From Mesostigma viride (taxonomy: Eukaryota > Streptophyta > Mesostigmatophyceae > Mesostigmatales > Mesostigmataceae), in the NCBI GenBank assembly GCA_009746045.1, contig RPFO01000165.1, positions 186,001 to 250,000 on the forward strand: a stretch of 64,000 nucleotides of DNA. The letters are read 5' to 3'. The position numbers and the translations under genes were made by a program. The notes below the pieces were generated by a model. The model did not search any database. It worked only from the letters and a program-made list of their open reading frames with translations, and was not told where the DNA came from. Shown here in pieces: positions 21,917 to 55,512 of this stretch; the stretch's first letter is position 1; the number at the start of each line of letters is the position of its first letter.

Positions 21917-21927
21917 CGTACTATTGC
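21917..21927 (+). promoter_or_regulatory. HG-1 primer-binding position, self-complementary to 3' UTR
   Basis: CGTACTATTGC follows the LTR directly and does not start with TGG, so it does not match a normal tRNA 3' end. The first ten bases are the exact reverse complement of CAATAGTACG at 28753-28762 in the 3' untranslated region of the same element. HG-2 has the same pair. Confidence 0.7.
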
Positions 21928-21950
21928 ATTTCTGTTGTGCAAGGTTTTTC

Positions 21951-23094
21951 ATGTCGGCCGAGGCTCGGGTCGAGACACCTGAGTCATCCCCGGGCACGAA
22001 GCAGCTCCCGAGGCGCCAGCGCGCGAGAACGCGTTTTTCCCCTATTCCCACCCATCCAACGCTTCTACGTTTGTGCAGGCCGCCTACGTTGCGAGGGGTC
22101 TTGCGGAAGGAGGTTGGGTTGCTGTGTTTGGAAACGCAGCAGGGCCGTCGGCAAACGACCCAGTGGTGATGAGGATAAGGGCGACGACGTCGCCAGGGGA
22201 GACGGGTCGGGTCTGCACGGAGCGGCTTGTCGCTATTCGCGACGAAATAGCTTCGTTGATCTACAGTTTGGAGGTCGCGTACCAGGGCGGGCACGTCACC
22301 ATTCAGGCGCTGGACTTAGCGCGTGAAACGCTGGGCCAGCTGGTGGCCATTTGTTTAGGTGGTACCAGATTGTATAACCACTGGGTGGCGACAAGCTCGC
22401 TGGGGGAGGGGACCGACGCGTCACATATTATACGGGACGCGCAGACGCGTGAAGCCGACAGTCCGTGGGATTCGGCTGAAGTGGTGGCTCAGACGTGTGA
22501 GCACCTGGTCAATATCTTGACCCAAGAGGCGCGTGGTCACGCCGATCACTGGGTGATCACACACGACCAGCCGGCATTTGGTCGACCTTGGATACACCGA
22601 GGTTGCAAAGCAGGCCGGGGGCGTGTGGGCCAACGGTGACAGTCATCACCGGTCGGGACGTCACCGACGAGGATTTTCACAGCGAGTTCGTGGATCGCCC
22701 CACGGGCATCATAGCTCGTTCGTCACAGCAGATTGACGAAGGGGACGGCACAAACGAGGCTACTCAGCTCGGCGTAGGGCGGAGTTGCATATCCCGTTTG
22801 AGCCGAACACGACTTCGCTGAGATTGGTCGGGGGTCACGGAACGACAGGCGGGGTGGTGGCAGTCGGTGGGTCAGGAACCTGCAGTGGTATCGCCGTGGT
22901 AGTGCGCCTAGGCTGCCGGTGGAGCAGACACCAGCCGGGAGGCCGGTGAGCCGGGTATTAGGTCCTTACAACGCGGAGGAGGTCCGCTCAGTTCCGCGCG
23001 TGGGGACACCGGTGGCGCGCACAGCGCAGGAGCGTGAGGAGGAGGCCATAGCTGAGGAACGCCAGCGGCTTCTTCAGGCAGCACCAGCGCTTGA
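21951..23094 (+). pseudogene. HG-1 extra ORF before gag (aORF)
   Basis: From ATG 21951, an about 380-residue protein in several frames, homologous to the HG-2 aORF (33623-34766). Conserved blocks are FVQAAYVAR.LAE.GWVAV, SPGETGRV, VAYQGGH.T..LDLARE, FNHWVA/YNHWVA and a later block QQI(D/N)EGDGT. I recognise no enzyme motif, membrane segment or zinc finger; the middle is helical in character. It lies where no ORF is expected in Copia elements. Conservation of protein blocks between two diverged copies suggests selection in the past. An extended matrix-like part of gag is an alternative. Confidence 0.65.
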
Positions 23095-23146
23095 GCCAGT
23101 TTTCCTTGTCTGTCGCCTGTTTTGTTTTGCCATCCCACTGTATATA

Positions 23147-24498
23147 ATGCCTCGTGGCAAACCGGGAGACGGCGACAAGGGCGAGATGGAGGCACCGGCT
23201 GGAGCAAGCCAGGAGCCTCGGCAAGACAAGGAGCAGCTGGTGGGAGAGGCGATCCCAGCCAGCGACGGCGATGGGGGAAAGAGACCAGGCGGCAAGAGAC
23301 GGCATGAAGACGCGGTGGAGGAGGCGCGCAAGGTGCGGGCAACAGGGCCAACGGATGCAATAACGGTGGCAAATGGGCAACCTGCCGTGGAGAAGCGTAA
23401 GAGGGACCCTCCGCTGACGGCAATGGTAAGAGGCCTCACGTGGATGTGCTCTCCCCTGTGCCTGCTGGACCAAGTGGTGTTGTTGTTGTGACACCCGCTG
23501 TGGTGGAGCCAGTGAAGGCGCTGCCAGGGTCGAGACCTCACATGAGTGCTGTCACTGTTATGAATGGTCAAAAGCCTCTTAACCCACCACTAGCACAGGA
23601 AGCTTTGGACAAGTGGCTGAGGACATGGAGCTTGTTGTGTGCTCCGTGGACCCCACTGTCAACCTAGTGCAAGTGTTTCACTCGTCCACGTGCAACAGGG
23701 ACTCGTCAGAGCGTGTCAGGGAGAAGGCTAGGACTGCTGTCAAGGATAAGCTAACCTGGGCACAGTTCCTGGAGGGTTGAGGGAGGAGTTCTCTGACAAG
23801 GTTCTCAACCTCACCAACTATTACAAGCATCAGTATGACACCTTTGAGATAGTGGGCCCTGTGGCAGAGGAATGGGCTAGGCTCAACCGTATCAGAGACA
23901 AGGGGGCCAAGTATGGCTTCCTGGTCACAGATAGGGCCTTGGCAGACTATTTCCTGGACCGTATGGGTTTGAGTGTGGATGGGAGGAACGGTGCCCGCAT
24001 GTTTCTTAACCAGACTGATGGCTCCTTGCGTGCTCTGGAGCTTGTAATCCTCAGCATAAGGAAGCCAGATCCTGCCTGCAAAGCTATCCAGTCCCATGGC
24101 AGCAATGCCACCTCCGCTGTGCAGGGCCAAGGTGATGTCCCCGGGTACCCAGCCCGTGATGGGGCAAGGCCCAACAAGCGTAAGCGCTTCAGGCGCCAGA
24201 GGCAGGGGGCTCAGGGTGGCAAGGGTGCAGGTTCCCAAGGAGGGGTTGGGAGCCAGCAAGCTGGTGGTCAGCAGGGTAAGGGTGGCCAAGGGCAAGGCAA
24301 GGGCCAAGCTCAAGGCAACCAGGGCAAGCAGGGTGGACAGTCTCAGGGAGGCCAGGGGAAGCCTGGCAAGGGTGGGGCTGGGTCTGGGAAGAAGGGTGGG
24401 CATGCTTTGTGTGTGGCAAGGAAGGTCACTGGCGTCGTGAGTGTCCTGACAGGAAGGCCAAGCCTGCTGGGGCAGGGGGCCAGTCTGGGCAGCAGTGA
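23147..24498 (+). pseudogene. gag: HG-1 gag
   Basis: Starts at ATG 23147 just after TATATA and is homologous to HG-2 gag (34814-36169). It has a charged N terminus, the conserved block GSRPHMSAVTVMNGQKPL at about 23530, a capsid-like helical region (EEFSDKVLNLTNYYKHQYD, then ADYFLDRMGLSVDGRN near 23945), a Gly/Gln/Lys-rich repeat region (24200-24390) and a CCHC knuckle ending in GHWRREC near 24430-24450. Frame changes occur near 23420, 23660, 23770 and 24400. The frame reaches a TGA at 24496-24498. Confidence 0.75.
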
Positions 24499-24501
24499 CT
24501 A
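24496..24501 (+). promoter_or_regulatory. gag-pol stop TGA-CTA, candidate readthrough site
   Basis: In the true gag frame the stop TGA is followed by CTA, and the pol sequence continues in the same frame. TGA-CTA is a well-known leaky stop context in other systems. HG-2 has TGA-CTT at the same place. Inference; not tested. Confidence 0.55.
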
Positions 24502-28521: not shown

Positions 28522-28568
28522 CCAGGTCACCTATAAACCTGGAGGTTGGGGTGGGGTTCAATTCCCCA
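28522..28568 (+). promoter_or_regulatory. tRNA-like T-arm hairpin (B-box-like) in HG-1
   Basis: A CCAGGT/ACCTGG stem is followed by TGGGG-TTCAATT-CCCCA, a 5-bp stem with a 7-base loop like a tRNA T-arm. HG-2 has TTCGATT in the loop, a perfect B-box. No complete tRNA fold is seen. Confidence 0.5.
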
Positions 28569-28741
28569 GCAGAGCCACAGCCTGGCATGAGTGATTCCTG
28601 GGCTTAACACCCAGTGAAGACATGGGCTCCCCAATGAGGCAGTATTTGTACAGGTGCTACCTGAGTCTCTTTGAGCATAAAAGGGAAAGGCTGGCCAAGG
28701 CGGGCGCCATAAGAACGGGCGCCTGTGATAACTGTGAAAGA

Positions 28742-28769
28742 TCAGGAACTCACAATAGTACGTTCTTGG
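28742..28769 (+). promoter_or_regulatory. HG-1 3' UTR hairpin carrying the PBS complement
   Basis: TCAGGAAC and GTTCTTGG can pair over 8 bp (two wobble pairs) around a 12-base loop TCACAATAGTAC. CAATAGTACG (28753-28762) in loop and stem edge is the exact complement of the ten bases after the 5' LTR. Confidence 0.65.
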
Positions 28770-29054
28770 CATCCTGTAATCCCAGCCATTGGACTAGGTA
28801 ATGTGCCTTGACTTTAATCTAGCACCAAGTTCCCAAGGAAAGGTTGGGAGCTGACCAAGGGGTCAGGGGATAACCTGGGGTGACCTCTGATTCACTGGCC
28901 AGTACACCTAGCCTGGTCCAAGGGCAGATATGTTGTTACCCAAAGGAGGCAGGAACCTGGGCCCTCAAAGGTCTGATCAACCTCAAGGGACCAAGCGGTC
29001 TGTGGCTGAGTGGGCACAAGCAAGGTTAGGCTTGTTTCAAGCTGGTCCAGCTCC

Positions 29055-29072
29055 AAAAGAAGAAAGGGTTGG
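29055..29072 (+). promoter_or_regulatory. Polypurine tract of HG-1
   Basis: AAAAGAAGAAAGGGTTGG directly before the 3' LTR. Similar tracts occur at 61697-61709 (plus) and 63623-63640 (minus), which identifies further HG ends. Confidence 0.8.
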
Positions 29073-29720
29073 AGTTAGCATTTTGGGCAACCAATATGCT
29101 AAGTGGATGCAGTTTGGAAAGACCTTTCCAACGCCGTGCTGACCGCCTGAAACAGACAAGGGACGAGAAAGATATGAGGTCCCGAAGTCCTAGCCGTCCG
29201 TGGCCGACTAGGGTACAGTCCTCTGGTATAGTGGACAGGACACGTGGCAGGCCGTGCCTGCACAGGCTTAGCCTGACTATCACGTGACTGTGGTCCACGT
29301 AGACCAGAGGAGCAGCAGCCTGTGGCTGGTGGAATACAGGACTGGCACAGGTCTGCAAGGATACTAGGCCTTGCAGGCTTGTGACAGGTCCTGTACTTCC
29401 TAGGTTGCAGAGTCTAGGCAAATCCAGTTCGTCCTGGCTCTGCACTGATGCCAGTGGACGTTGTGGATTTGCTTGCATGCCTGCACGTGCCTCGTCACGC
29501 CGATGGGAACGAGGAACAACGCAAAGGATATAGCTTGGTCATGGGGGATGACCAGCTATCTTGGCAAGCACGAACCGAGGCTCCCACATTGGACGTGGAA
29601 CCGCTCACCGTGGTCGTGGCTTGGTGCACGGGTTAAAAGGTTGCTGCCTTTGCAACTTTGGCTCATCCCGTTGTGTGGCGCGAGAGACCAGGAACTCACA
29701 GTTCTGGCTGTTCGCTAACT
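29073..29720 (+). repeat. 3' LTR of HG-1
   Basis: 648 bp, differing from the 5' LTR at about three positions that I noticed (29262 region, 29302 region, 29464). Ends GCTAACT, followed by the TSD ATGGG. Confidence 0.93.
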
Positions 29721-31592: not shown

Positions 31593-32940
31593 ATGGCTGA
31601 CGGTATTGAGCGAGGGCGAGGAGAGGCCCATCGCTTCTCTCCTGCCCCTTCCCTCGTGGCAGCACTCGAGGCGGCAGAGAGAGCTACCCAAAATCACTCA
31701 CGCCCGAGTAGTGAGCGTGGCTCTAGGGGGTCATCCCCGGCACAAACCCCACGTGCGGTTAGGAGGGAATTCCTCGGCGGCTGCCGGCGCACCACCTGAT
31801 AGCCCCGTAGTGAATCCCCTTAATGGACCACCAAGTGGAACATCCATCGCGGGATTGTCGGCGGGTCCGGCCCTTGGTGTAGGAGCCGGCGCGGGGGCGC
31901 AGGGGAATAATGTTACCCTGCACTATGTAGGAGTGGGGCCCTGCCTACCCTGCTGCCGCAACCTACATTGGCCACTTGGCCCAGCAGCGCCCCGGCGCCA
32001 CCCTTGTATGATAGCCGAGCGCGGTCTCGCCGCGCTGCGAATCTAGCGTCCTATCATGCGCGTGGACCCCTTGGGGCTAGCCCCTTCGGCCATGCCTCAC
32101 CAATGGCTGGGCAGGGCCAGGACACCGCACGGACCGGTCGGTCTTCCTTCGGGGTCGCAGGGGAGGCAATTCCCCTCCCCAACTCAGCATACGACCGCCT
32201 GGCTCCGGGTGACCCGCGAGCGCAGCACCCAGCGACCGCCGCCGCCCATCATCATGCAAGCCGCGCCCACTACCCACATGGGTATGAGCATCCGGGTGAG
32301 GATGAGTGCAGCCCCCCGGCAGGTTACCCGCGTGGCACACCTCGCAAGGTGTGGCCGGGCCTGGGAGACCCGCGAGTATCATGGGCCATCATGACGATGA
32401 TACTCACAATGTCGGGCGACTACCGCCGTTGCCCAAGCTGTCGGATATTCCCAAGTTTACACCCGACTGCTCGTACCAAGAGTTTGAGGCTTGGGAGATT
32501 GCAGTGTCTCAGAAGATCTACATCTGGGAGACATACAATCGCAAGCTCTTGGACGAGGATATCAAGGTCAAGCTGGTGTCCAGCAAGGCACTGGCTCCCG
32601 ATGTGAGACAACCTCTCCATTGCGAAAGCGCCCTGGCCAATGGCTTCCCCAGCAGCTTGGCGGAATTACTTTCGGCGAGCACGGGCCAAGTACCTGCCAC
32701 CCGACCAAGACAAGCTGGACCGGGAGGCTTTTGGGGCGTTCCAGCAGGGGAACCTGAGCTATCGGGAATATATGACCAAGTTCCAGCTTCTAGCTGGGCG
32801 GGTTGATGTCAGACCTGATGGGCCCAGAAGCCTTGGCAAGGTTCTATGAGGGCTTGCAACCAGAATTCCGGGATGAGGTGAAGCGGAAATTCGCCCACCT
32901 CTCCTGGGCTCAATGGAACCTGCAGGACATCAAGACCTAC
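31593..32940 (+). pseudogene. gag: Ty3-type gag remnant, cut by HG-2
   Basis: From ATG 31593 (MADGIERGRGEAHRFS) a low-complexity, Gly/Pro-rich N terminus passes through at least three frames, then a capsid-like region: LSDIPKFTPDCSYQEFEAW (about 32440), YLPPDQDKLDREAF (about 32690), GNLSYREYMTKF (about 32748) and EGLQPEFRDEVKRKF (about 32850). The order and the LSYREYMTKF block parallel the TRG capsid (TTPYREFLSKF), so the two families are distantly related. It ends at 32940 with the codons for DIKTY, where the HG-2 LTR begins. The rest should lie beyond the right edge of the window. Confidence 0.7.
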
Positions 32941-33597
32941 AGTTAGCATATTGGGGCACCAATGTGCTAGGTGGATGCAGGTTGAGGAGACCTTTCCAAC
33001 GCCGTGTCAACCGCCTAGAACAGACGAGGGACTAGAGAGATATCAGGTCCCGAAGTACTGCCGACCGGCGGGCGGGGGCGGTGCACTCTCAGGGCATAGT
33101 GGACAGGACACGTGGCAGGCAGTGCCTGCACAGGCTTAGCCTGAACCATCGCGTGACTGGGACACAGTGTACTGAGGACGCAACGGTCCTGTGGCTAGTA
33201 GAAGCCAGTAGCCAGCCAGCAGGTCTGCAAGGATGTAAGTCCATGCAGAACTGTGGCAGGTCCTGTGCTGTCCTAGACACAGGATAGCCAGAGATTCCTG
33301 TATGCTGCCTACAACGAGGATGCAGGGCAGCGATACGAGGCTCTGGCAAAGTAGCGTTGCACAGCGTTGCTCATGACCGAGGAACAAGGATGGATCGAAC
33401 GAGGTTGCATATAGCTCGAGGCTCAACGAGGCAACGAGCGTCTTCACACATGAACCTTGGTCGTCACGACGAGTGGCGAGCCTATCGAGGGTCGTAGGCC
33501 TGGTGTGAGGATAAAGGTTGCTAGCCAGCAGCCTAGGGTCATTCCAGCCAGCAAGACCAGGAGCTCACAAGCTCTGCTGACGAGTTGCTGTGCAAAT
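32941..33597 (+). repeat. 5' LTR of HG-2
   Basis: Begins AGTTAGCATATTGGGG and is clearly related to the HG-1 LTR (for example the CTTTCCAACGCCGTG block). The end is set at 33597 because CGTACTATTGC, the first internal sequence of HG-1, follows. The end (TGTGCAAAT) is less symmetrical than in HG-1. Near the end GAGCT-CACA-AGCTC (33561-33574) forms the same bulged hairpin as HG-1. Confidence 0.82.
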
Positions 33598-33608
33598 CGT
33601 ACTATTGC
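33598..33608 (+). promoter_or_regulatory. HG-2 primer-binding position
   Basis: CGTACTATTGC, identical to HG-1 over 11 bases although the sequence around it differs. The first ten bases are complementary to CAATAGTACG at 40415-40424. Confidence 0.7.
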
Positions 33609-36172: not shown

Positions 36173-36175
36173 GAG

Positions 36176-40181: not shown

Positions 40182-40229
40182 AGGAGCTGATCCAAACCTG
40201 GAGGATATGGGGTGGGGTTCGATTCCCCA
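40182..40229 (+). promoter_or_regulatory. tRNA-like T-arm hairpin with perfect B-box in HG-2
   Basis: CCAGG...CCTGG stem, then TGGGG-TTCGATT-CCCCA. GGTTCGATTCC matches the Pol III B-box consensus. Same position as in HG-1. Confidence 0.5.
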
Positions 40230-40403: not shown

Positions 40404-40431
40404 CCAGGAACTCACAATAGTACGTTCATGG
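40404..40431 (+). promoter_or_regulatory. HG-2 3' UTR hairpin carrying the PBS complement
   Basis: CCAGGAAC and GTTCATGG pair (one mismatch) around the 12-base loop TCACAATAGTAC. CAATAGTACG at 40415-40424 is the complement of 33598-33607. Confidence 0.65.
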
Positions 40432-40737
40432 ACTCCTCTATCCAAACTCCTCTGACTAAGTGAAGACCTAACTTTAATCTACACCAGCCAGGTTCCCAAA
40501 GAAAGGGTTGGGATGTCATGTGGGTCAGAGGGCAACCTTTGAACCAATGAGCAGGCCTAGCTAATATTTGGAGGCACCTCAGGTTCCAAAACAAAAGGCA
40601 GGTCTGGTCTCTGGGAGGGATCAGATGTCTGATGAGCGCTCCCACGGTCCTAAATTTAGGACTTTGTCCTAAATCGTCCTAGTGGTCACTATAACCGAGG
40701 TACCGGGGGGGGGGGTCACTATATGGACCGTACCCCA

Positions 40738-41482
40738 TGTTGAAAGAACTAATGGGTTTGCCTTCTACAATGCTTGTGATTGAAACCCAAATGTGCCTGT
40801 CCTTGCAGGTACAGGCTATGGAGGATGGGAGCAAAGAGACAGAGACTCAGTTTGAGGCAGAATGATAGTGAGGAGTACCTTAGGCAAGGCTCCTCAGTTG
40901 TTTTATTAACTCGAGGAAAAAACACAGGCAGAAAACTGGAATGACCTGATTGGCTGGCTAGGAATGTGCCTAGGAATATTCTCATGTAATACTCAGGCCA
41001 CCAATCAGGTTAGGTCAGTGTACAGGCTACCAATCAGATCTAGACAAGAATAAATCTTATCTTGTAACTGCTGTACAGTCTTATCTTGTAACTGATGTAC
41101 AGCCTTAACTTGTAACTGCTGCACAGTAATCTAACTATTTAATAAAAGATCTCTCTATGTGTGATCTGATGATGATGAAGTAAATCTGGCGTGAACATAT
41201 CAGCGCCACATCTGACATGCACAGTGTACATGTCAATCAGTCAGCTGTCCTGTCATAGATTCTCATCTCACATGTCATAGGTCAGCTGACATAGACAGAT
41301 TTGTCAGCTGCCTATAAGGATCCACTTGGCATAGGTACTAATCCCTGATTACTAAAACTGGCCACAACTTTCTCATTTGTGGGCCAAATCCAACGGGATA
41401 AAGAACAGTGGCTCCTGTACAAGAGCCTCTATCTATCTAGCCAGGTCAGGTGGGTACAAATACAAGGACCATGTCCTTGACA
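40738..41482 (-). repeat. 3' LTR of Copia-3
   Basis: 745 bp; on the minus strand begins TGTCAAGGACATGG and ends TTTCAACA. Apparently identical to 44986-45730. Confidence 0.95.
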
Positions 41483-42824
41483 CCCCCTTACAACACATGA
41501 CCTTGCTCTAGTGCTATCCTGTCAAGTATAACACTTAGAGGAAAAGCTCTCAGCCATAGCTAAGTCAAGCCTTGACCAAACATAGGACTCTAGAATTAAA
41601 TTCAGTACTCACTATCAAGGTGACATTTGGGTACAACCTTGACACCCCCCTTACCCACATGGCACCAAACCAAAAATGGGATGCAACCCAGGCCAGTGGT
41701 AAGGATCAAACACTAACTGATCACGGGTAAGTGGGCGAAAAACATCCACCCCCCTCGCTAGCAAACACCGTGGTCAAAGTAGTCAAAAGACGATCTCCAC
41801 GGAAACTGGAAACTGGAACTCCGGACCGGTGACGCGCCGAGTGTCCAACGAAAGCAGCAGGAAAGATTGCCGCATCGCCCAGCAACTAGCATGTGTTGCC
41901 AAGTCAAAAACTTCGTTGGGAAGATGCGCTTTGGATCACACCCCCCTCACTCTAGCGTCGCCTGAAAACATGAAGAAGCACACAAAATGCTCTAACACAG
42001 GCAAACTCTTAGACAATGCAGGGGACATGATGTATGATTAACGCATAAAACATGTGATTAACGACATAAAGCATCCGACCTACGGCAGAGCACCAACGGT
42101 GAACAAGGAGCAGAACACGTAGTCCTGAAACACCTTAATCACACAGGTAACTAACATAAACCGACATAGTCATGGATCTTAGCATTAGCCAACATGAACG
42201 AACTGAAAAGACAGCTCTGATTAACCAACGATAGTTGAAAGCGACTAAAAACGGGACATGAAGCGACGACAAAGTCAGGAGCACAAACGCAGGCTATGTA
42301 CAAAAGACACAACCGCAAACTGCATGAACAAACCTAGCATGCAACGAGAAAGTATGCCCTAAGAATGGGCAACACACACGACATGAAATGAACGTGCAGA
42401 TTGACCACAAAAAGGGTCAGCAAGAACGGAGACATGGCCAGCAAACCGGCGCTAGCCAAACGTACCAAGATTACAAAGAACTTGGAAAACATACCATTGC
42501 TGGTAGAAGAACGTCATGGGGACGATGAACACAGGTGGTCTAGAACTCAAATAACGCATCCCGACGAAGCGCTATGAAAAAGTCTAGCAGAAACAAAACA
42601 AGACTATGCGAGATGCATAAGGCCGGAAGGACCCCGCACCTAACAGCACAATAGACCACAAAATATTCGTGTCTAAAGCAATTTTTCACGAACGAAAAAC
42701 AGTGGCGACTTGAGATCATAGGGGTTAGTTAAGCTAGCTATCAAATTCCCAACGAACGTGACCATAGCGCATCCCCAAAAATCGCCATGAAAATAGCGGA
42801 AGCAGGGCTCCCGCACCGACCGCC
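41483..42824 (-). other. Copia-3 non-coding 3' region with polypurine tract
   Basis: 1.3 kb where integrase and RT would be in a full element. The minus strand ends in TAAGGGGGG next to the LTR, the purine tract. No ORF of note. Confidence 0.75.
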
Positions 42825-44972
42825 TTAGTGCTCAAGGCAGCACTTGTGCCGGCAACTTGTTGGCTCAGCACAGTCCCAAATTGACAGGGACACGTGGCAG
42901 CCGACGACTCCAGCTCCAGGACTTGGCTCCAGGACTGGGCTTGGACTTGGTGCATCTGGTGGCCTCCCCTCACCAGGAATTCCCCCCGCAGCAAAATCCA
43001 AAATGCTGGCGCCCGAGACGCGCCACGCCAAACCCCCACTTGATTCTGGCCAGGGAGCGAAACCGTCACGCAGCAGGCTTGGTGACGTCTGCGTGTTGGC
43101 ACTAGTAGGCCAAACGATGCCAGGCTGGGGAAGCTCTCCCAGCACGCCACGTAGGTTGACATCCATGGACAACGGCAAGCCAGGTGAGCTCGCCGCTGGA
43201 GGGGTCAGGGAAACTGGTGGAGCAGAGTCCACCTGATCTGGCACGAGAGGGCTATAAGTAGTACTGCCCGACGCAGAACTCCAGGAACCGTCCTCCCCGT
43301 GTGCCCCAACGACCGGTACTAAGCCGATCCCATTCCTTGCCGTCCCCACCACGCCAAAATCCTGCACAATTGCAGGTTTGTCAGCGGAAAAACCGCCCTT
43401 GCCGCCACACGACAGTGGCGACGACACCGGGCGCAGCAAAGCGCCTCGGGAAGAAGCCTGCAGTCCCAAAGGCCGCGAAAAGCCAGGCAGAAAGCCCAGC
43501 GTCTTGGACATGGCCGCCACTGGCAGGCCAGCGCTCCACAGCGACCCCAACGGCCGCACGGTCGTGGCCGCCAGCGCCGCCTTCTTGTTGAGAGCAGGTA
43601 ACACGTAGACGTTGTCCCTCTGCTCCATCTTGTGCGCCTTGTTGTCCACCACAGCGATTTCCTGGTTGAAATCCAGCTTGTGGCCAGCCTTCACGAGCGC
43701 TCCAACAGAGAGCACCCGAACGGGCAGCTCGGGGACCAGAAGGGCTCCATCCAGTCGGAGCTCGCTCCCCGGCAAATGCACAGAAACTGTGCCAACTCCA
43801 GCAGCTTGCAGGTCGCCGCCTGATCCGACGATCTGCCTGTTGTGGGGGATAAGTGACACGAAGTCAGAACGGCACGGGGACATGTGGCTGCTCGCAGCCG
43901 AGTCCAGCACCCAGTTGAGTTTGTCGCCCGTATACTGCGTGAGAGCAGCAGCCTCCAGCGGCGTCGACGGCGACTCCTCGGCGATGGTGACCATGCAGAA
44001 GCCAGGCGGCAGTTCAGCCGCCTCCTGAGTTGCGTTGGCAGCGGATCCAGCAGGTGCGTTGCGTCCCTTGCTCTGGTTCCCTCGGTTGCCGCCCTTGCCC
44101 CCCCTGTGCTGGTTGGGGTACCACCGTGGGGCCTTCTCAGGATGCTCCTTCCAGCAGTCTTTGTCCTTGTGATTTGACAGGCCACAGTGACTGCATTTCT
44201 TGGTCCCCCCGTTCCCCTTGCTGTTGGTGTGGTAGGCCTGGCCAGTGCCAGCACTCTCCTTTTTCACCACAGCACGTCCCCCCTTGAGCAGATCCTCCGC
44301 CTCCATGAGTGCCCTCTTCACCACAGGTAGTGGGTCCTCCTCGTTGAACCGTACAGACACCAGCGCAGGGCGGTACTCGTCTGTCAGTGCTCCCAGTAGA
44401 ATGGCAGCAAAATCACGGTCCTGGATGACTCCCCCTGCAGCCTGGTAGTCAGCACGTAGAAGCTCCGCCCTCCTCACAAGCTGTTGCATGGTCTCGTTAG
44501 GAAGCTTCTGTAGGCGGTGCAGCTTGCTCCTCAGCTCAAACCTGTGACTCTTGGTTAGCCTGGTTTGCTCATAGTTCTCCATGAGACACTGCCATGCTTG
44601 GCTACCAGTTTTGTTGGCCACAGTGGCCATGAGGCGTGCAGCTTCACCTGTTAGACAGGTGAGCAAAGCTGCCCACAGGGCCTTATCAGCCCTGTCATTC
44701 TCCTCAGTGCCCAGCAGGACAGCATCCAAATTGAAAAGACTGACAACAGCCAAAAACAGATTCTTCCACTCCTCCCACTTGCTGTAATCATCACCAGCTG
44801 CACCAACAAATTTCTTGCAGCTCTTGGCAACTGTTGAAACAAGAGAGGTGTAGTCAGGCTGTCTGGTAGCAGTTTGGGTGTCTTGATCCTCCATGGTTGA
44901 TCTGGGTCTGGGTGTTGTCTCTGGGGTAGTCAGATGAATGTCTCTGCTCCTCAAATGCAGGGTAGGCATCAA
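42825..44972 (-). CDS. gag: Copia-3 Gag-protease polyprotein
   Basis: 715 codons, intact; a more likely start is the internal ATG at 44892-44894 (MEDQDTQTATRQ), leaving 689 residues. Residues 27-230 are a Copia-type gag (UBN2-like: WEEWKNLFLAVVSLFNLDAVL, AWQCLMENYEQTRLTKSH, LGALTDEYRPALVSV). Residues 264-277 are a CCHC knuckle CSHCGLSNHKDKDC. Residues 356-450 are a canonical Copia protease (WVLDSAASSHMSP, GSGGDLQAAGVGTV, VPELPVRVLSVGAL). Residues 460-475 resemble the start of the pre-integrase region (EQRDNVYVLPAL), then homology stops and the last 230 residues are unrelated, Pro/Ser-rich sequence. Here PR is in the normal place, in contrast to the HG family. Confidence 0.88.
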   Translation of the reverse strand: MMPTLHLRSRDIHLTTPETTPRPRSTMEDQDTQTATRQPDYTSLVSTVAKSCKKFVGAAGDDYSKWEEWKNLFLAVVSLFNLDAVLLGTEENDRADKALWAALLTCLTGEAARLMATVANKTGSQAWQCLMENYEQTRLTKSHRFELRSKLHRLQKLPNETMQQLVRRAELLRADYQAAGGVIQDRDFAAILLGALTDEYRPALVSVRFNEEDPLPVVKRALMEAEDLLKGGRAVVKKESAGTGQAYHTNSKGNGGTKKCSHCGLSNHKDKDCWKEHPEKAPRWYPNQHRGGKGGNRGNQSKGRNAPAGSAANATQEAAELPPGFCMVTIAEESPSTPLEAAALTQYTGDKLNWVLDSAASSHMSPCRSDFVSLIPHNRQIVGSGGDLQAAGVGTVSVHLPGSELRLDGALLVPELPVRVLSVGALVKAGHKLDFNQEIAVVDNKAHKMEQRDNVYVLPALNKKAALAATTVRPLGSLWSAGLPVAAMSKTLGFLPGFSRPLGLQASSRGALLRPVSSPLSCGGKGGFSADKPAIVQDFGVVGTARNGIGLVPVVGAHGEDGSWSSASGSTTYSPLVPDQVDSAPPVSLTPPAASSPGLPLSMDVNLRGVLGELPQPGIVWPTSANTQTSPSLLRDGFAPWPESSGGLAWRVSGASILDFAAGGIPGEGRPPDAPSPSPVLEPSPGAGVVGCHVSLSIWDCAEPTSCRHKCCLEH

Positions 44973-44985
44973 ACCTCCGATACCA
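44968..44985 (-). promoter_or_regulatory. Copia-3 primer-binding site (initiator-Met type)
   Basis: Directly after the 5' LTR (minus strand) the sequence is TGGTATCGGAGGTTTG, close to the TGGTATCAGAGC site used by many Copia elements. Confidence 0.85.
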
Positions 44986-45730
44986 TGTTGAAAGAACTAA
45001 TGGGTTTGCCTTCTACAATGCTTGTGATTGAAACCCAAATGTGCCTGTCCTTGCAGGTACAGGCTATGGAGGATGGGAGCAAAGAGACAGAGACTCAGTT
45101 TGAGGCAGAATGATAGTGAGGAGTACCTTAGGCAAGGCTCCTCAGTTGTTTTATTAACTCGAGGAAAAAACACAGGCAGAAAACTGGAATGACCTGATTG
45201 GCTGGCTAGGAATGTGCCTAGGAATATTCTCATGTAATACTCAGGCCACCAATCAGGTTAGGTCAGTGTACAGGCTACCAATCAGATCTAGACAAGAATA
45301 AATCTTATCTTGTAACTGCTGTACAGTCTTATCTTGTAACTGATGTACAGCCTTAACTTGTAACTGCTGCACAGTAATCTAACTATTTAATAAAAGATCT
45401 CTCTATGTGTGATCTGATGATGATGAAGTAAATCTGGCGTGAACATATCAGCGCCACATCTGACATGCACAGTGTACATGTCAATCAGTCAGCTGTCCTG
45501 TCATAGATTCTCATCTCACATGTCATAGGTCAGCTGACATAGACAGATTTGTCAGCTGCCTATAAGGATCCACTTGGCATAGGTACTAATCCCTGATTAC
45601 TAAAACTGGCCACAACTTTCTCATTTGTGGGCCAAATCCAACGGGATAAAGAACAGTGGCTCCTGTACAAGAGCCTCTATCTATCTAGCCAGGTCAGGTG
45701 GGTACAAATACAAGGACCATGTCCTTGACA
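44986..45730 (-). repeat. 5' LTR of Copia-3
   Basis: 745 bp, apparently identical to the 3' LTR; followed by CCCCA, the target duplication. Confidence 0.95.
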
Positions 45731-47046
45731 CCCCATGTGGACCGTACCCGGCATGATGTACCCGACCCGTGGTACCGGCACATGGTACCCGGATTCCGTA
45801 CCCGGGTACTGGGTATAATGGCGGGAAAGTAGGTACCTCGACCAAAAATATAACCGATTTTGGAGCGAAAAAGTGGGTGCGCGGGAATGAAGTGAGGTGG
45901 ATATGGCGACCTGACAATCGTGGCCGGCGTTTTCACGTGCGTTTATCATTTCGGGCGCCCAGTAGCAAAAACGAAAGGTTGTTAGTTATGCTTAAAGGCT
46001 GTGAATATTTTCTGCTTAAGTTTTTATGTGTAGCGCTGTAGCACAGCGGCACAACACAAATGGGTCGCAGATCGCCTGCTCGCGGACGGTCGATTTTGGC
46101 ACAAACATGTTAGTGTATTAGCAATCATTGGTGGTGCGAATCAAGCCAGGAAATTTTTGTGGACGATTTTGATTATAGTCTGGAATTTAGAAACGGAGTA
46201 TTTGACATGGGAGCGCCTGGGCCTTGATATTCTTGCCCGATTTCCATTGTCGACCATGTTTTAGGGACGTTCAGGCTGGGCAGCGAGCGCACCTTATAGG
46301 TCTTCACTTTCGGTATTTCTTGGACCTAGAACGCAGCACAAGCGTGGTTTATATCATTGTCGAACCGGTTGGCCAGCTTTGGTGCGCTCAGCTCTCGGAA
46401 AGCTGACCTCGCTGCGGATTTCAGCGACTTTTTTGCAACCATCTGGAATGAGGCGACGTAAGTAGCAGGTACGTGCCGGGTTGTCCTAGATCATGAGTGC
46501 ATGAGTGTAACTGGCAACGCTGTCGTGGTGTTTTGAGTCAGCCAGCTATGCCTAAAAAGAGGGGACGCTCTCTGTGTACATAACTGTCACACATAGTTGG
46601 TTTACGTCATACAATTTTTTACGTCTCTATCTTCGTCGTCCGCTGCAGCTAAAACACACATGCGTAAGAGCAGTTTTACTCATGTGTTAGTTATAATTAA
46701 CCATGGTCCTATGGCCTGCAGTCGTTCAGGGTGTTCTCAGACAGTACATACAGTATGGTTTACGTGTTACATGCACCCTGAATTCGCTCACAAAGCGTTG
46801 CATGTTAGCACAACGTTGTTTTGTAACTTGATTTGGCTGCATTCATGTGTTAGTTGCAATGCAAATGCAATGTTTTTTCATCGCTGGGTGGTGGCCAGCA
46901 TGTCCGTGATGTCAAAGAAGGTTTGGCATATGCTTAGAGAAAGTTTACCGCAAGGGGTGGGCCATGTTCAAGCCGGGCAACCTCAGCAACCATGCAACCG
47001 TATATTGCATTACCTGCACCATCTGTGACACCGTTAATCACGCGTA
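45731..47046. other. Interior of element T, no gene
   Basis: 45736-45836 has at least six GTACC units (ACCCGG, GGTACC palindromes). The rest to 47046 has no convincing ORF on either strand. Confidence 0.6.
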
Positions 47047-47445: not shown

Positions 47446-47466
47446 CCACGCCTGCCCTGATTGTTC

Positions 47467-47479: not shown

Positions 47480-47936
47480 AGTTAGATGAGATGCTTAGGC
47501 TGACACACGGATTTCCGGCCTGCGCGCCGCGTATTGCCTACCGCGGCTGAGCGGGACACCTCAGTACAGTACGGCAGGGTGTACGGTACTGAGGTGTCAT
47601 GTGGACCGATGTGCGGTTAGTGCCAGACTGTGCCTAGACTCTAGCTCGACCCGCCAGACCCGGGTTATCCGGTTCTGGACGGGCCGAGTGTAGTCGATGC
47701 TAGTGACGTGGTCGCATGGCATTGCAGTGTACAGTTGTCCACTGGTCGTGTGCTGCAGGTAGCACCGCCATAGGCATATAGGCGTAGCACTGGGGAGTGC
47801 CACAGCACCCGAGTTTGCCCAGACGTTCCATTCTGAGCCCTCAGCTTCCATTGCTCTCTCATTGTATTATTGTAATACAATCATCATTCGCTCTCAGCTT
47901 TCGCAGTTGTTCGTCGTCCCTAGTCTCCATCCAACT
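47480..47936 (+). repeat. 5' LTR of HG-3
   Basis: 457 bp, AGTTAGATGAGATGC ... CTCCATCCAACT. Confidence 0.93.
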
Positions 47937-47947
47937 TGGACTGAAAA
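47937..47947 (+). promoter_or_regulatory. HG-3 primer-binding position
   Basis: TGGACTGAAAA follows the LTR directly. It is the exact 11-base complement of TTTTCAGTCCA at 55383-55393 in the element's own 3' untranslated region. Confidence 0.7.
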
Positions 47948-47979
47948 GTTCGATATTTTTTTTACAAAAAAAAAAAGAT

Positions 47980-50518: not shown

Positions 50519-50580
50519 TAAGGGCAAGGGCAAGGGCAAGGGCAAGGGCAAGGGCAGGGGCTGGGGCAAGGGCAAGGGTA
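50519..50580 (+). repeat. GGCAAG repeat encoding KG units
   Basis: About nine GGCAAG/GGCARG units within gag, giving a basic RNA-binding-like tract. Confidence 0.85.
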
Positions 50581-50613
50581 AGGGGCAGTCTCCCTCCAAG
50601 GGGGGCAGCTCCA

Positions 50614-50639
50614 GCAACAACAACAACAACAGCAACAGC

Positions 50640-50691
<52 letters not shown>

Positions 50692-50709
50692 CACAACAAC
50701 AACAACAAG
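50614..50709 (+). repeat. (AAC)n microsatellite in gag
   Basis: About 30 AAC units with few interruptions (AGC, ACAC). The gag frame probably changes inside this array. Confidence 0.92.
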
Positions 50710-50757
50710 AAGCAGGACAAGGAGGACAAGTCTTCTCAGCGGTGCACCCGCTGTGGC

Positions 50758-51984
50758 ATGAAGTACCACCTGCGGCCCACCTGCCGCAAGAACGTGGACG
50801 AGCTGGGGCATTTGGACGTCCTGTGCCACAAGTGCCACGGGCCGCCCCACGGTGACCCCAAGGACTGCAAGCGGCCTCCTTACGGCAAGAAGTGTGAGTC
50901 TCCCTCTCATGCTGGCTTGAGTGTGCCTGCTTCACCTTCTTCTTCTGCATGCCCCACTGTCAGAGCAGTGAGCAGTTCTGGAAAGGTGCTACAGCTGGTT
51001 TCAGAAGATTATGTCTCTAAACCAACCTTCACATCTATGGTTCCCAAGGTGTGCAGAGTGTCCCCAGCAGAGGATGCTCAGATCAGTTTTCAGGAGCTTG
51101 CTTTGCAGTTGCATTTCCTTTATGGGCATGAAGTGAGTGCAGAGGTGGTGGCAGCAGCAATAGGGGGGGCAGCACTCAGACGTGCATGCCAGGTGGTCAG
51201 ATCCCACTGCCAGCATTGTCAGTTCAATGCACCCAAACCCCCTAAGTGGCATGTAGCTACCCCACCTAAGAGCAAGGGCAGGGTGGTAGGAGATGTCTTT
51301 CATATCAAAGGACAATCTTACTTGGCACTTAAAGATGCATGGTCAAGGTACACAACCATTGAACCATTACCTGGAATGGACAAGACACAGTTGCTCAGGG
51401 CTCTCTTGATTGCTCAGGCCAGGTACTACCCTGTGGAGGCATTGTTACTGGATCAGCAGTTCACGTGTCTTGCCAATGAACCAGGGTGTGAGGCTATTGA
51501 TCTGGCTGGGCTAGAAGATCATGAGAGGCAAGGCATTATTGAAAGGGCCATCAGGTCCATTAAAACCCTTGTAGCCAAAGAAGATGGCAATCTGCTGGCT
51601 GACAGTGGGTCATATGCTGACAGAGCTCTGTGGTCCACCAGGTTGTGCCAAGTCCTCAACAGGAGGCCACTCATGAAAACCCCACAAGGGGTGGTCATTA
51701 CACCAGATGGATTGCATGCAGGCATTTATCCACCTGAGGTACTAGCCCTCTACAACGCACAGCGAGCACAGACAGCTAGCAGGTTAGCTGTCAAGGATGC
51801 AAAGCATCCACGTCCCACCTTCAGAGAAGGGGATCAGGTCCTATTCTACAAGGAGTCGGGACTAGGCAAGGTGGGTACCTGGCATGGGCCAGCCACCATC
51901 CTAAAGTTTAACACCACTGGCAGGACAGTGTTAGTTAAACACAATGACACGGGAAAATTCACAGGTGTTCACCTCACAGGATGA
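50758..51984 (+). CDS. pol: HG-3 pol part 1: knuckles and integrase
   Basis: 408 codons shown from ATG 50758; the frame is open further upstream, so the ATG is internal. Residues 1-37 complete the zinc knuckles. Residues 115-165 hold an HHCC zinc region (LHFLYGHEVS ... CQVVRSHCQHC). Core: VVGDVFHIKG with KDAWSRYTTI (51290-51365), LLLDQQFTC (about 51445) and GIIERAIRSIK (about 51535) give D, D, E. A basic C-terminal domain (FREGDQVLFYKESGLGKVGTWHGPATIL, 51820-51905) is like integrase CTD. Integrase starts right after the knuckles with no protease between. Confidence 0.85.
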   Translation: MKYHLRPTCRKNVDELGHLDVLCHKCHGPPHGDPKDCKRPPYGKKCESPSHAGLSVPASPSSSACPTVRAVSSSGKVLQLVSEDYVSKPTFTSMVPKVCRVSPAEDAQISFQELALQLHFLYGHEVSAEVVAAAIGGAALRRACQVVRSHCQHCQFNAPKPPKWHVATPPKSKGRVVGDVFHIKGQSYLALKDAWSRYTTIEPLPGMDKTQLLRALLIAQARYYPVEALLLDQQFTCLANEPGCEAIDLAGLEDHERQGIIERAIRSIKTLVAKEDGNLLADSGSYADRALWSTRLCQVLNRRPLMKTPQGVVITPDGLHAGIYPPEVLALYNAQRAQTASRLAVKDAKHPRPTFREGDQVLFYKESGLGKVGTWHGPATILKFNTTGRTVLVKHNDTGKFTGVHLTG

Positions 51985-52677
51985 AATTGTATTTTCCAAC
52001 TGTGTCAGACGTGGCAGAGGAGGAAGAGCTGTTGGCCGACAGCCCTGTACAGTTGCCTGGCATCCCAGCGTTGCCCAGTGAGTGGTTGTTTGGAACACCC
52101 ACTGGTGAGTGTGAGAGCCACACCCACTGTGACACCCAGGTCACCCTTGATGATTGCAGGCAGTCACTGCAGGCTTGGCCCCCTGCAGCAGAGGGTCACA
52201 TTGGCAAAACAGGTGATCAGCAACCTATCACCTACAAGTGTGAACATAGCTCAGCCACTAGCTGCACCTTCCAAACGCAGCCTAGCAGACGCTGTTCGCA
52301 TTTTACAAGCAGCTCATAGAGCCAAAGCTCAAACTGCTGCAGGATCAGCTAAGGTGGGGAAGGTTGGGCAGAATGACAATAGCCCATTTATGGTTGCAGT
52401 GGACACACAAGCCCAGGTCAGCATTATCAGTGCCCTGGCTGTGCCCCATATGCCTTTGGAACCTTCACCCTGGCACCATGTGGCTGATTTCTCAGGGCAG
52501 TCATCCCTCAAGGTATTAGGTCAGGTCATGTTGACTATACTCGGTATCCCCACTCCTTTTCAGGTCTTGGAAGGTTATAAAGGGAATGCTTTGTTGGGGG
52601 ATCCTTTTCTCTGTTACCCTGGTGTCTCATCTCCAGTGATAGACTATCCATCCAGGACATGGGTGGTGTTGATCTGA
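51981..52677 (+). CDS. pol: HG-3 pol linker and retropepsin (PR after IN)
   Basis: The integrase stop TGA overlaps an ATG (ATGA at 51981). A first frame (51981-52319) gives an acidic linker (VAEEEELLADSP); the protease is in the frame ending 52677. Protease: FMVAVDTQAQVSII with Asp codon 52402-52404, HHVADFSGQSSLKVLGQVMLTILGIP, and closing motif NALLGDPFL at about 52584-52612. The strands and spacing match the HG-2 protease. The frame switch near 52300 is either decay or indel error. Confidence 0.75.
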
Positions 52678-54448
52678 ATCATTTCAAAATTTCTCTTGAA
52701 AAACTTCTTAACACCAACATTGCTTCTGTAAAATTTGCTACACCCAAGTATGCCCCAGGGCAAGAACCCTGTGTGGCAGACTTGGTTCACAACCAAAAAC
52801 TTCATCCCAACTCATTTGGATTGGGCAAGCATGATGTGGCTAAAATGTCTCCTCTTTCTTATGAACAGATAGAGCAAGACTGTCGCACACACATAGGATT
52901 CCTAAAATGGGTGGAGGCCTTTAACAAGGCCAGGGAAGAATGGGTAGTGCCAGATCCTCTTAGTCCTTCTCATACTCCACCTGTCACACCTATTGACAAA
53001 AAGCCTGCAGGGTGCAAGCACTTGCGCCTGAAGTTTGTGTGTAAACATAAGCCAGCAGCAGATGGGTCAGTCATTTTCATGCTAGACCTTGTGTGACAGA
53101 GTTCAAGGGCACCACTGATCTGACAGAGGCAGAGTTGTACACGCCAGGCATTCAGCAAACATCCCTAAAAATCTTGCTGTCTGTCTTTGTGGGTCATCTC
53201 AATGATGGGGATGACTATGTATGTAAGGCTACAGACATTAAAAGGGCTTTCCTGAAAGGCTCACCTGAGATAGCACAACAAGTGTGGCATGGTCAGGTGT
53301 ATGTAGTCTCCACTCCCAGAGTTTGGGCAAAACACATCCCTCAGCAGTACCTGAAAGCTAACATAGGTGTTGAAGGGCTGCAATCAGCTCCTCGCATTTT
53401 CAGGATGTCAGCTCAGGCTGTGTTTGAAAAGCTAGGGGCTAGATATGATGACATAGACCCTTGCTTCTTTGTGGTCCCACACCCTCATGGCATTCTCACC
53501 TTTGTGTGGCATGGGGATGATCAGCTGATTGCTGGGCCAAGGCGTGCTGTGGATGATTTTATTCAACAAGTGTCACAGCATTTTGAGATTGGCAAGCAAG
53601 TAGAGCTGGGCACCACTGCCATAAAATTTTGTGGCACAATGTTACAACTCCAGCAGCATCAAAACCAGTGGGTGTGTGCACTTTACTCTCCCAATGATTA
53701 CATGCACAGCTGCTTGGAGGTTTTGCAAACAAAAATCAAACCTGGAGCCTGTCCTACCATTAGAGGCAAGCTGGGGTGGTTGTGCTCAACGTGTGCACCT
53801 CACCTGGCTGTGGTTAGCAGAGTTGATGATGATGTCTTGATGCAAGTAGGTCACAAAGCCATCACCAAAACTCTCCAGGAAGGCCCTCCCCTTATCTTGC
53901 ACTCCTTGGATCTCCACAAAACCATTCACATCCAAGCTATGATGGATAGTTCCATGGAGTCCAGGCAGATTACCAAGATGCAGGCAAGGGAGTCAGGCTT
54001 GTATTTTGTGCAGAATGATGATGCACCCTTGTCTCTCATTTCATGGTACAGCCGGTTGCATAGACGCAAGGCTGTCAGCAGCAATGCTGCTGAGTGCAGG
54101 GCAGTGGTGTCAGCAGTGCTTCATGCCAGGTACTTGAATCATGTGCTGGTTTGGTTGCAGATGCAAGCAGGCAGCAATGCTGGGGTGGTGGCACACTTGC
54201 TCACTGACAGTCAGTCAGTCCTCAGTTTCCTTGCTAACCCCTATGCTGTCCACACTGATCTTGACTGGGTGGTCCTGAAACAGGAGTCCACCTACTGGGA
54301 GTCCACCCGTCACGTGGAGGACAAACACAACGCTGCTGATGCACTCACTAAAGTGCCTCAGCAGGCAGCTGAACAATATCAGCTGTTGTACCACTTGATG
54401 AACCCCTATGGCAAGCAGGCAACCCTGCCCCATAGGGGGGACGCCTAG
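52659..54448 (+). CDS. pol: HG-3 pol part 2: reverse transcriptase and RNase H
   Basis: Two frames joined near 53090: 52659-53096 (leading part with MSPLSYEQIEQDCRTHIGF and LRLKFVCKHK) and 53093-54448. RT: TEFKGTTDLTEAELYTPG, TDIKRAFLKG (about 53237), APRIFRMSAQAVFEKL, HGDD at 53510-53521, FEIGKQVELGTTAIKFCG. RNase H: MMDSSMESRQITKMQ (53940), SSNAAECRAVVSAVLHARYL, LLTDSQSVLSFL, HTDLDWVVLKQE, DKHNAADALTKVP (about 54322). The frame 53093-54448 (451 codons) is uninterrupted. Copia-related; HGDD as in HG-1/2. Confidence 0.86.
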
Positions 54449-55512
54449 CAGGGTCCTGTTCACCAGGGCCGCCTAGGTCACCCAGTACCCCTTGGGCAGG
54501 TCCAAGGGGTAGGTTGTGGCTTCCAGCCAGGGGGGTTGGTTGGAGTCTGTTTTCATACATCTGCGTGCCCTATGCCCAATAAAATCTGTTTTGATTTTTT
54601 CAACACCATGGAATTTCGTTATGCACACCTTCATAGGTGGGCATGGGATGTATCTCACACTTTTTTTCCACTAGGGCGTATGCCTTGGTGGATTGGCCTT
54701 GAGCTCAGTGGCTCAGGTGCCCCCATTCAAGTGGAGGGTCAAAGCTCCCTTGACAGGTGGTTACCCAGGACCCCAGTTCACTGTGGATATCCTGGGCCAC
54801 CTGGCCTCACTGTTCAGTGGCAGTAAAGGCATGGGTGCTGTCATGTTGTCTAGTACAACGTGCTCAGCCCAGGTGCAGGATGCAATATTCCTGTCACCTG
54901 TCACCAGGACTTCAGTCACCATGTGCAGGGCAGGGGTGGCTGGTCTCACACGTTGTGCAGGTGCAACGTGGCCAGGTCCAGGATGTCATAGTCCTGTCAC
55001 CTGTCACTAGGACTTCAGCCCCTCTGTGCAGTGCAGGGGTGGCTGGTCCTCACATGTTGTGCAGGTACAACATGGACAGTGCAGGGTGCAATAAACCTGT
55101 CCACTGTCACTACTCAGGTTGCAGGTAACCTGAGCTCAGTTGACCCAGCCTGGCTGGGTATTTTTCTCTGAGTGGGCGATGATGATGGAACAACATGGAA
55201 CCTCTTAAACGGTTACCTTGGCATTTTTTTACAATGGCTCTCTTGGCTGGTGGTGCACTCCCTGGATAGGCAGACAGGAATAGCTATCTCCCTTGTGAGC
55301 TCGCGAGGAGGAGGAACTCCCCGGGCATGTTGAGCTAAACGTGATGCCATCACAAGTATTGCACGAGTTCTGGGGCCCATCTTTTTCAGTCCAGATGTTG
55401 CAGTATGGGTGTCAGTTGCTCAGCACCTCAGTCAGCTTGGAGTCAGTCTCCTAGCTGGGCAGGGTCAGGCTTGAAGTCGCTAGCCTTCAACCTGAAAGGA
55501 AAACATAATGGG
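54449..55512 (+). other. HG-3 3' untranslated region
   Basis: No gene. AATAAA at 54580-54585. Two copies of a roughly 90-bp unit (54893-54970 and 54995-55070: CACCTGTCACYAGGACTTCAG ... GGGGTGGCTGG). The PBS-complement hairpin is at 55377-55397, and a purine-rich stretch GAAAGGAAAACATAATGGG precedes the LTR. Confidence 0.7.
55377..55397 (+). promoter_or_regulatory. HG-3 3' UTR hairpin carrying the PBS complement
   Basis: CATC and GATG form a 4-bp stem around the 12-base loop TTTTTCAGTCCA. The loop includes TTTTCAGTCCA (55383-55393), complementary to the 11 bases after the 5' LTR, and ends in CCA like a tRNA 3' end. Confidence 0.62.

Follow-up and report, generated by a model that had tools for sequence, protein, structure and literature searches.

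A candidate 3'-end self-primer in copia-like LTR elements of Mesostigma viride

Priming determines how LTR retroelements are copied and binds these elements to host tRNAs. In the literature on self-priming examined here, tRNA-independent RNA priming has been described by one route, in which the mRNA 5' end is used. Tf1-type self-priming has also been predicted for the plant TAR elements, including Houba and Osr-1, and for Tcn1 (PMC4600332, PMC6317226), and self-primers have been sought in the 5' LTR (PMC6317226). In half-tRNA copia elements the primer 3' end arises by internal cleavage (PMC5371799, PMC6317226). No paper on a self-primer in the 3' UTR was found in the accessible parts of the open-licence literature on self-priming. 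In the present study we analyzed a 64,000-nucleotide stretch of M. viride DNA (the window), in which a first-pass annotation had described three LTR elements, HG-1, HG-2 and HG-3, carrying in their 3' UTR the exact complement of their own primer-binding position. Our results incline us, with some reserve, to the conclusion that these copia-like LTR elements prime minus-strand DNA from a stretch of element RNA that is encoded close to the 3' end.

The HG-1 5' LTR (21267..21916; window features are on the + strand unless stated) ends ..CTAACT and is a 99.5% direct repeat of the 3' LTR (29071..29720), before which lies a purine-rich tract. The primer-binding position CGTACTATTG (21917..21926) starts at base +1 from the LTR edge, and its exact complement in the 3' UTR, CAATAGTACG (28753..28762), is the proposed primer end. 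The HG-2 3' LTR is gone, so the 3' edge of the 5' LTR (32939..33597; 77.6-77.9% to the HG-1 LTRs over 339 aligned positions) was set by homology, unlike the edges of HG-1 and HG-3, which come from LTR-LTR alignment; here CGTACTATTG (33598..33607) pairs exactly with CAATAGTACG (40415..40424). In HG-3 the 5' LTR (47480..47936) ends ..CCAACT and is a 99.8% direct repeat of the 3' LTR (55513..55969), and TGGACTGAAAA (47937..47947) pairs exactly with TTTTCAGTCCA (55383..55393). The three pairings are as first annotated in both letters and positions, and the claim that no base separates the 5' LTR from the start of each match is borne out independently by the LTR-LTR alignment edge in HG-1 and HG-3.

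Three further elements, discovered once the hypothesis was already fixed and two of them in DNA chosen regardless of the feature, display the same arrangement. HG-5, whose 3' LTR lies in the window (63023..63623, - strand) and which extends beyond it, has in the adjoining DNA an exact 9-nt complement, TGTAATACG (L047:65-73), of its primer-binding position CGTATTACA (L047:6204-6212), in register with the LTR edge. Exact complements of 12 nt in family M4, where the segment falls within the tail of an open frame, and of 10 nt in HG-7, which comes from an arbitrarily chosen 20 kb, likewise stand at offset 0 to the LTR edge. Together, five distinct primer-binding sequences (HG-1/2, HG-3, HG-5, HG-7 and M4) each have their own exact 9-12 nt complement near the 3' end, and the register is the same (offset 0) in all five families. 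The distance from complement to 3' LTR varies between 119 and 441 nt, the latter in HG-5. Each match stops sharply at 9-12 nt, which is what one would expect of a primer footprint.

Covariation of the two sites, proposed as a check by the first-pass annotation, was found: HG-5, M4 and HG-7 are altered on both sides, in register. The RT regions of HG-5 and HG-7 are 64-66% identical to that of HG-1/2, and both paired sites have changed. When the five families are compared, two or three pair types occur at eight of the first ten paired positions, all Watson-Crick by construction of the test. Positions 4 and 6 are invariant, indicating that part of the agreement between families reflects common descent. 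HG-1 and HG-2, annotated as separate cases, share 75.6% DNA identity across 5.5 kb; they belong to one family and are counted once. HG-3 had been called unrelated, but the HG-2 and HG-3 RTs share 35% identity, which makes HG-3 distant rather than unrelated. The HG and M4 families are a single copia-like clade.

The HG-2-type 5' site reads CGTACTATTG at 7 of 8 loci (one being the window copy) and CGTACTAATG at the other, and the HG-3 complement TTTTCAGTCCA is kept in 29 of the 30 HG-3 loci read (again including the window copy). A decayed HG-1-like copy adjoining the window has CAATAATACG as its 3' site. The element copies are highly uniform and probably recent. One M4 copy (77101-83236 of a joined stretch) gave no offset-0 match with its BLAST-trimmed LTR pair, the trimmed edge being 14 nt off; its flank contains the M4 primer-binding sequence in antisense, and this copy was left out of the counts.

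With respect to classification, HG-3 matches RVT_2 (E 6.9e-6), a weak rve match (E 0.006) lies upstream of it, and RVT_2 is also found in the relatives P0001, P0004 and P0006; none of these matches reaches the Pfam curated cut-offs. No RT domain match in Pfam was obtained for the HG-2 ORFs or for P0005; they are homologous to the RVT_2-bearing sequences at 35-39% identity. The predicted order, an RVT_2-type RT with integrase upstream, is that of Ty1/copia. Viral contigs contained no relatives of the HG-2 RT. Ty1/copia LTRs usually end TG..CA. By eye, such ends are absent from HG-1, HG-2, HG-3, HG-5, HG-7 and M4; the termini are AGTT..AACT in all of these except HG-2, which ends ..AAAT.

The pairing is the firm part of our observations, and the hairpin around the complement is less firm. 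A 12-nt loop had been annotated in all three HG elements. It is predicted for HG-1 in windows of 34-70 nt, with two weak internal pairs, and is absent from the 101-nt minimum-energy fold; for HG-2 it appears in 34-, 50- and 96-nt windows and is absent at 70 nt. HG-3 instead has a 5-bp stem closing a 10-nt loop, in a 35-nt window only, and the predicted fold of its complement region does not improve on that of shuffled sequences (z +0.56). The predicted unpaired probability of the complement is 0.78-0.92 in M4, HG-7 and HG-3 (12-30 nt flanks) and 0.63-0.65 in HG-1/2. The hairpin is lost in HG-5 in a 69-nt window (unpaired probability 0.30) and in HG-7 with 45-nt flanks (0.38). Additionally, a tRNA T-arm-like motif that resembles an RNA polymerase III B box lies in the 3' UTR of HG-1 (GGGGTTCAATTCCCC, 28553..28567) and is kept in HG-2 (GGGGTTCGATTCCCC, 40214..40228, placed by alignment with HG-1 and HG-5), HG-5 and HG-7. 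A GGGCGCC..GGGCGCC block 5' of the HG-1 complement (28702..28723) is conserved in the HG-1/HG-2/HG-5 alignment. A hairpin in HG-1 U5, CCAGGAACTCACAGTTCTGG (21884..21903), was read by eye; its left arm and loop start are common to the HG-1 3' UTR hairpin.

To act as a primer, the 3' segment, which in many cases lies in a hairpin loop, would anneal over 9-12 nt to the bases that immediately follow the 5' LTR. If the RNA were cut just 3' of the segment, the new 3' end would lie at the U5 edge, and reverse transcriptase could extend it to copy U5 and R. The same cut would remove the 3' end of the genomic RNA, and with it the 3' template of that molecule, so that the other template would have to be supplied by another RNA in the particle or by a separate short RNA. 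In plus-strand synthesis the post-LTR site would be rewritten from the primer, so that one cycle later the 5' site would carry any change in the 3' segment; this would explain matched sites amid drifting surroundings. Annealing in particles, the cut, the cutting enzyme and priming are steps that we infer. A broader proposal, which we regard as speculative and rather unlikely in its entirety, is that a 3' UTR primer module, consisting of the T-arm-like element and a primer-presenting hairpin and either cleaved out or produced independently as a short RNA, replaced the host tRNA; with the 5' site rewritten each cycle, the primer would evolve free of host-tRNA constraint.

A single match of this kind is expected about once in 1000 and many features are open to a reader, which raises the question of coincidence or of selective reading in the first-pass annotation. 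When the same prefix-complement test was run from other anchor positions within each element, matches of the observed length arose at 2/3099 (HG-1), 4/3099 (HG-2) and 3/3099 (HG-3) anchors, in keeping with the annotated estimate of roughly 1 in 1000 per element. Per 2283 anchors the counts were 2 (HG-1), 3 (HG-2), 3 (HG-3), 4 (HG-5), 0 (M4) and 1 (HG-7), and Fisher combination over the five families, with the M4 count conservatively set to 1, gave 2.2e-10. Since HG-5, M4 and HG-7 repeat the result at the identical base, and two of them were sampled regardless of the feature, we give chance or selection almost no credence. The feature is absent from the two TGG-site LTR elements in the window, where the complement does not exceed 5 nt in the copia element and 6-7 nt in the other. 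A host RNA, either a half tRNA or another, could instead be the primer, with the 3' UTR copy serving to mimic a tRNA, to act as a decoy or to latch over the primer-binding site. Half tRNAs have been reported to prime the Osser, Bryco, Bianca and part of the Gymco-II copia lineages (PMC6317226), and the T-arm-like motif of HG-1, HG-2, HG-5 and HG-7 would suit mimicry. As annotated for HG-1 and HG-2, TGG is absent at the LTR edge; this also holds for HG-5, HG-7 and M4, so that in four of five families a tRNA CCA end is not expected as primer. The HG-3 site does open with TGG, and HG-3 might be primed by a tRNA. Plant tRNA-Gly(GCC) contains AATAGTAC. A search of the genome with RF00005 gave 10,691 first-look candidates and 63 scored matches, too few for a tRNA survey; none of the 20 matches read, many judged organellar or bacterial from their contigs, contains a primer sequence, and the primers share at most 5-8 nt with these genes, a weak test. 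Within the window, ARAGORN found no tRNA and no known RNA family reached gathering score. A host primer would take five different host RNAs, each copied into a 3' UTR, and we consider it improbable.

Alternatively, the 3' loop may pair with the leader as a cyclisation or kissing-loop contact for strand transfer or choice of full-length RNA, with another primer in use. Ty1 offers a close parallel, in that its 14-nt CYC5 is perfectly complementary to CYC3 in the 3' UTR and the pairing promotes reverse transcription (PMC5454406). Loops of 10-15 nt suit a natural kissing module, and no cut is required. However, Ty1 CYC5 (155-168) is downstream of, and distinct from, the PBS (95-104; PMC5454406), and the Ty1 primer is tRNA-iMet, whereas here pairing runs from the LTR edge in all five families; a Ty1-type leader motif outside the primer-binding site was rejected on this ground. 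Furthermore, the four TGG-less families show no alternative primer site by eye. We hold contact of this type to be possible but somewhat unlikely. The first-pass annotation had left a cis-encoded primer and a kissing contact side by side; covariation and register stand, and cleavage and priming would follow if the former applies. Because register with the LTR edge is expected of a primer and dispensable for mere contact, we prefer the self-primer. Points that tell against this preference are the CGTACTAATG and CAATAATACG variants, the hairpins lost in some windows, the 8-nt LTR match of HG-5, the M4 complement lying in an open frame, the loss of the 3' template on cleavage, the TGG of HG-3 and the invariant positions 4 and 6.

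If true, a self-primer at the 3' end would constitute a second tRNA-free priming route and would explain coevolution of primer and binding site. It would also mean that a whole clade can be overlooked when primer-binding sites are annotated solely from matches to tRNAs or to the 5' LTR.

A Tf1-type primer in the 5' LTR was rejected for HG-1, HG-2, HG-3, HG-5 and M4, in which the longest LTR prefix complement is 0-5 nt; HG-5 has a single 8-nt match in its own LTR, beginning 7 bases past the edge. As in Tf1 and Tj1, the bases that follow the 5' LTR have their pairing partner in RNA of the element itself, and a tRNA would be unneeded (PMC4600332, PMC6317226); the partner there is the mRNA 5' end in the 5' LTR, whereas here it lies 119-441 nt before the 3' LTR. 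In Tf1-type self-priming the primer is element RNA that is cut inside an RNA duplex. The fungal GalEa elements are similarly copia elements without a tRNA-type PBS, but their Conserved Hairpin Site is wholly beside the 5' LTR, and the accessible description mentions no 3' partner (PMC5445492). In Drosophila copia, Ty5 and Osser, too, the PBS is not complementary to the CCA end of a tRNA (PMC5371799, PMC6317226), although the primer there is a host tRNA. Finally, the bipartite PBS of Ty3 resembles the present arrangement in that a 5' PBS and a 3' U3 region both serve initiation (PMC5371799). Both Ty3 parts bind the tRNA, whereas here the 3' part would be the primer's own sequence.

In each of three LTR elements of a copia-like clade in the window (HG-1, HG-2 and HG-3), an exact complement of the primer-binding position was found in the element's own 3' UTR, and all three (3/3) pair from the first base 3' of the 5' LTR, as the first-pass annotation had described. 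The LTR edges of HG-1 and HG-3 were set by LTR-LTR alignment; HG-2 has no surviving 3' LTR. Control anchors in the same element attained the observed length in 2/3099 (HG-1), 4/3099 (HG-2) and 3/3099 cases (HG-3), in line with the annotation's chance estimate of about 1 in 1000 per element. HG-1 and HG-2 form a single family. HG-3, previously called unrelated, belongs to their clade at some distance, with 35% RT identity. The genome examined comprised 440 Mb in 2243 contigs; the published M. viride assembly measures 441.8 Mb, and LTR elements make up its largest class of repeats (PMC6947507).

The annotation had proposed a covariation check in more elements, and each of three further members of the clade pairs at offset 0. 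HG-5 lies on the minus strand across the window end and into the adjoining 40 kb; its LTRs, at 63023-63623 and 70213-70829 in window numbering, are 96.3% identical, and its RT region is 66% identical to that of HG-1/2. It carries CGTATTACACG directly after the LTR, with which TGTAATACG, located in its 3' UTR, pairs over 9 nt; this 3' site aligns with the HG-1/2 site, 3' of a conserved GGGCGCC block. M4, selected via P0005, a Mesostigma gene-model protein (Mesvir1; 37% to HG-2 RT), has TGTATTCATAAA directly after the LTR and TTTATGAATACA 339 nt upstream of the 3' LTR, within the tail of an open frame, giving a 12-nt pairing; a second copy (116737-122891 of the joined stretch) shows the same pairing, and the 3' site is present in 8/8 loci. 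HG-7 came from an arbitrary 20 kb of a different contig; its two LTRs agree at 99.1%, and its RT region matches that of HG-5 at 66.5% and those of HG-1/2 at 63.9-64.4%. It pairs CAAATTACAA, directly after the LTR, with TTGTAATTTG in the 3' UTR over 10 nt. By eye, the LTR termini of HG-1, HG-3, HG-5, HG-7 and M4 are AGTT..AACT, not TG..CA.

Per 2283 control anchors, the observed length was attained by 2 for HG-1, 3 for HG-2, 3 for HG-3, 4 for HG-5, 0 for M4 and 1 for HG-7. With the M4 count entered as 1, these counts combine by Fisher's method to 2.2e-10 for the five families; HG-1/2 and HG-3 had been picked by the first-pass annotation, and HG-5, M4 and HG-7 had not. At 8/10 of the first paired positions, two or three pair types occur across families. 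Paired positions 4 (A) and 6 (T) are invariant, which makes common descent likely. Between HG-5 and HG-7 the complement core TGTAAT is common, and positions 2-3 carry a compensated difference.

Two other LTR elements served as controls. One, a copia element on the minus strand at 40735-45734 with 100% identical LTRs, adjoins the HG-2 remains just past the HG-2 3' UTR. At its inner LTR edge stands TGGTATCGGAGGTTT, which we take to be a tRNA-iMet type site, as in plant elements; its longest 3' complement over seven offsets was 5 nt. The element at 9662-19356, with LTRs TGTTACGTCC..ACGTAACA and TGGTTATCGGAGG just inside the LTR, gave at most 6 nt in plus and 7 nt in minus orientation. Thus the pairing is present in five clade families and absent from two other TGG-site LTR elements; within the clade, HG-3 has a TGG primer site and the other four families do not. 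By eye, CCCCA flanks the copia element on either side. The 9662-19356 element contains a long poly-glutamine (CAG) tract within an open frame and has an inverted partial copy at 1-4333.

Among copies, the HG-3 3' site is preserved letter for letter in 29/30 loci (window copy included), the thirtieth diverging upstream of the site; the loci are near-identical and recent, and their agreement says little about constraint. HG-2-like 5' ends (n=8, window copy included) read CGTACTATTG in 7/8 and CGTACTAATG in 1/8, and one decayed HG-1-like 3' end reads CAATAATACG. All scored RT matches have 99-100% protein identity (94 for HG-3; 70 for M4, each 100% to P0005), and HG-3 and M4 were therefore probably active very recently.

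The complement lies in a predicted apical loop in at least one fold window in every case. The loop measures 10 nt in HG-3, 12 nt in HG-7 and in HG-1/2 (where it encloses two weak pairs), 14 nt in M4 and 15 nt in HG-5, and the 3' end of the complement falls at most 2 bases from the 3' arm. The M4 loop is stable in 52- and 72-nt windows, the HG-1 loop appears in 34-70 nt windows and is absent from a 101-nt fold, the HG-2 loop appears in 3/4 windows, and those of HG-3, HG-5 and HG-7 are lost in wider windows. The claim of a 12-nt loop in all three window elements thus held for HG-1 and HG-2 in some windows and failed for HG-3. The 3' UTR folds better than shuffles in HG-1 (z -3.0) and HG-2 (z -2.2), which may be owed to the GGGCGCC block; the HG-3 region does not (z +0.56). 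We regard a hairpin presenting the complement as probable. The U5 hairpins of HG-1 (21884-21903) and HG-2 (33557-33579) have CCAGGARCTCACA in common with the complement-bearing hairpin (one mismatch in the HG-1 3' UTR), which looks as though the primer letters had entered the loop of one hairpin.

Counting both strands, a strict B-box-like pattern, presumably the polymerase III B-box or tRNA T-arm form, matched three times in the window plus the adjoining 40 kb, and each match falls in the 3' UTR of a different element (HG-1, HG-2 and HG-5). The motif, GGGGTTCRATTCCC (28553-28567 in HG-1, 40214-40228 in HG-2; also in HG-5 and HG-7), is one of several conserved 3' UTR blocks. M4 has a looser form by eye, GGGTCGATACC, and HG-3 does not match the strict pattern. 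The motif may be a sign of a tRNA-like function or of one involving polymerase III.

In retroviral replication the primer 3' end sits at the first bases after the 5' LTR, an RNA pairing from exactly the first post-LTR base can prime, and plus-strand synthesis recopies the primer-binding site from the primer. The partner of the post-LTR site lies near the element's own 3' end in 5/5 families, and on the sequence we lean, by a small measure, toward the view that these elements prime minus-strand synthesis from a segment of their own 3' UTR. Because the site is recopied, such a primer would overwrite the 5' site every cycle, keeping the pair matched. A primer in the element's own LTR was also considered: no match starting at the edge exceeded 5 nt in HG-1, HG-2, HG-3, HG-5 or M4, and an 8-nt match in the HG-5 LTR lies seven bases off the edge.

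A host RNA might instead be the primer, with a copy of its sequence in the 3' UTR, which we regard as improbable. An RF00005 search of the genome gave 63 scored tRNA matches out of 10,691 candidates, and of the 20 read, none has more than 8 nt in common with any primer. Nor do those 20 include a sequence that fits the control copia site (the best covers 8/15 nt), which makes plain that tRNAs are missing from this sample. Eight of the 63, with eight different anticodons, lie on one 1.49-Mb contig (G000:C2011), possibly a bacterial contaminant or symbiont within the assembly. The main difficulty for self-priming is that a cut RNA would forfeit its 3' end, and a second RNA or separate short transcript would be needed. 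The strongest rival, which we consider unlikely though less so than a host primer, is that the two sites form a 5'-3' RNA contact instead of a primer. Such a contact would be like that of Ty1 CYC5:CYC3 (PMC5454406). Searches of the open-licence literature on self-priming, Ty1 cyclisation and Mesostigma brought up no paper devoted to a 3' UTR self-primer. Among LTR elements with unusual primer sites are Ty3, in which a 5' and a 3' part both bind the tRNA (PMC5371799), and the fungal GalEa copia elements, which lack a tRNA-type site (PMC5445492). Priming from the 3' UTR would take its place beside the self-priming of Tf1 (PMC4600332, PMC6317226).
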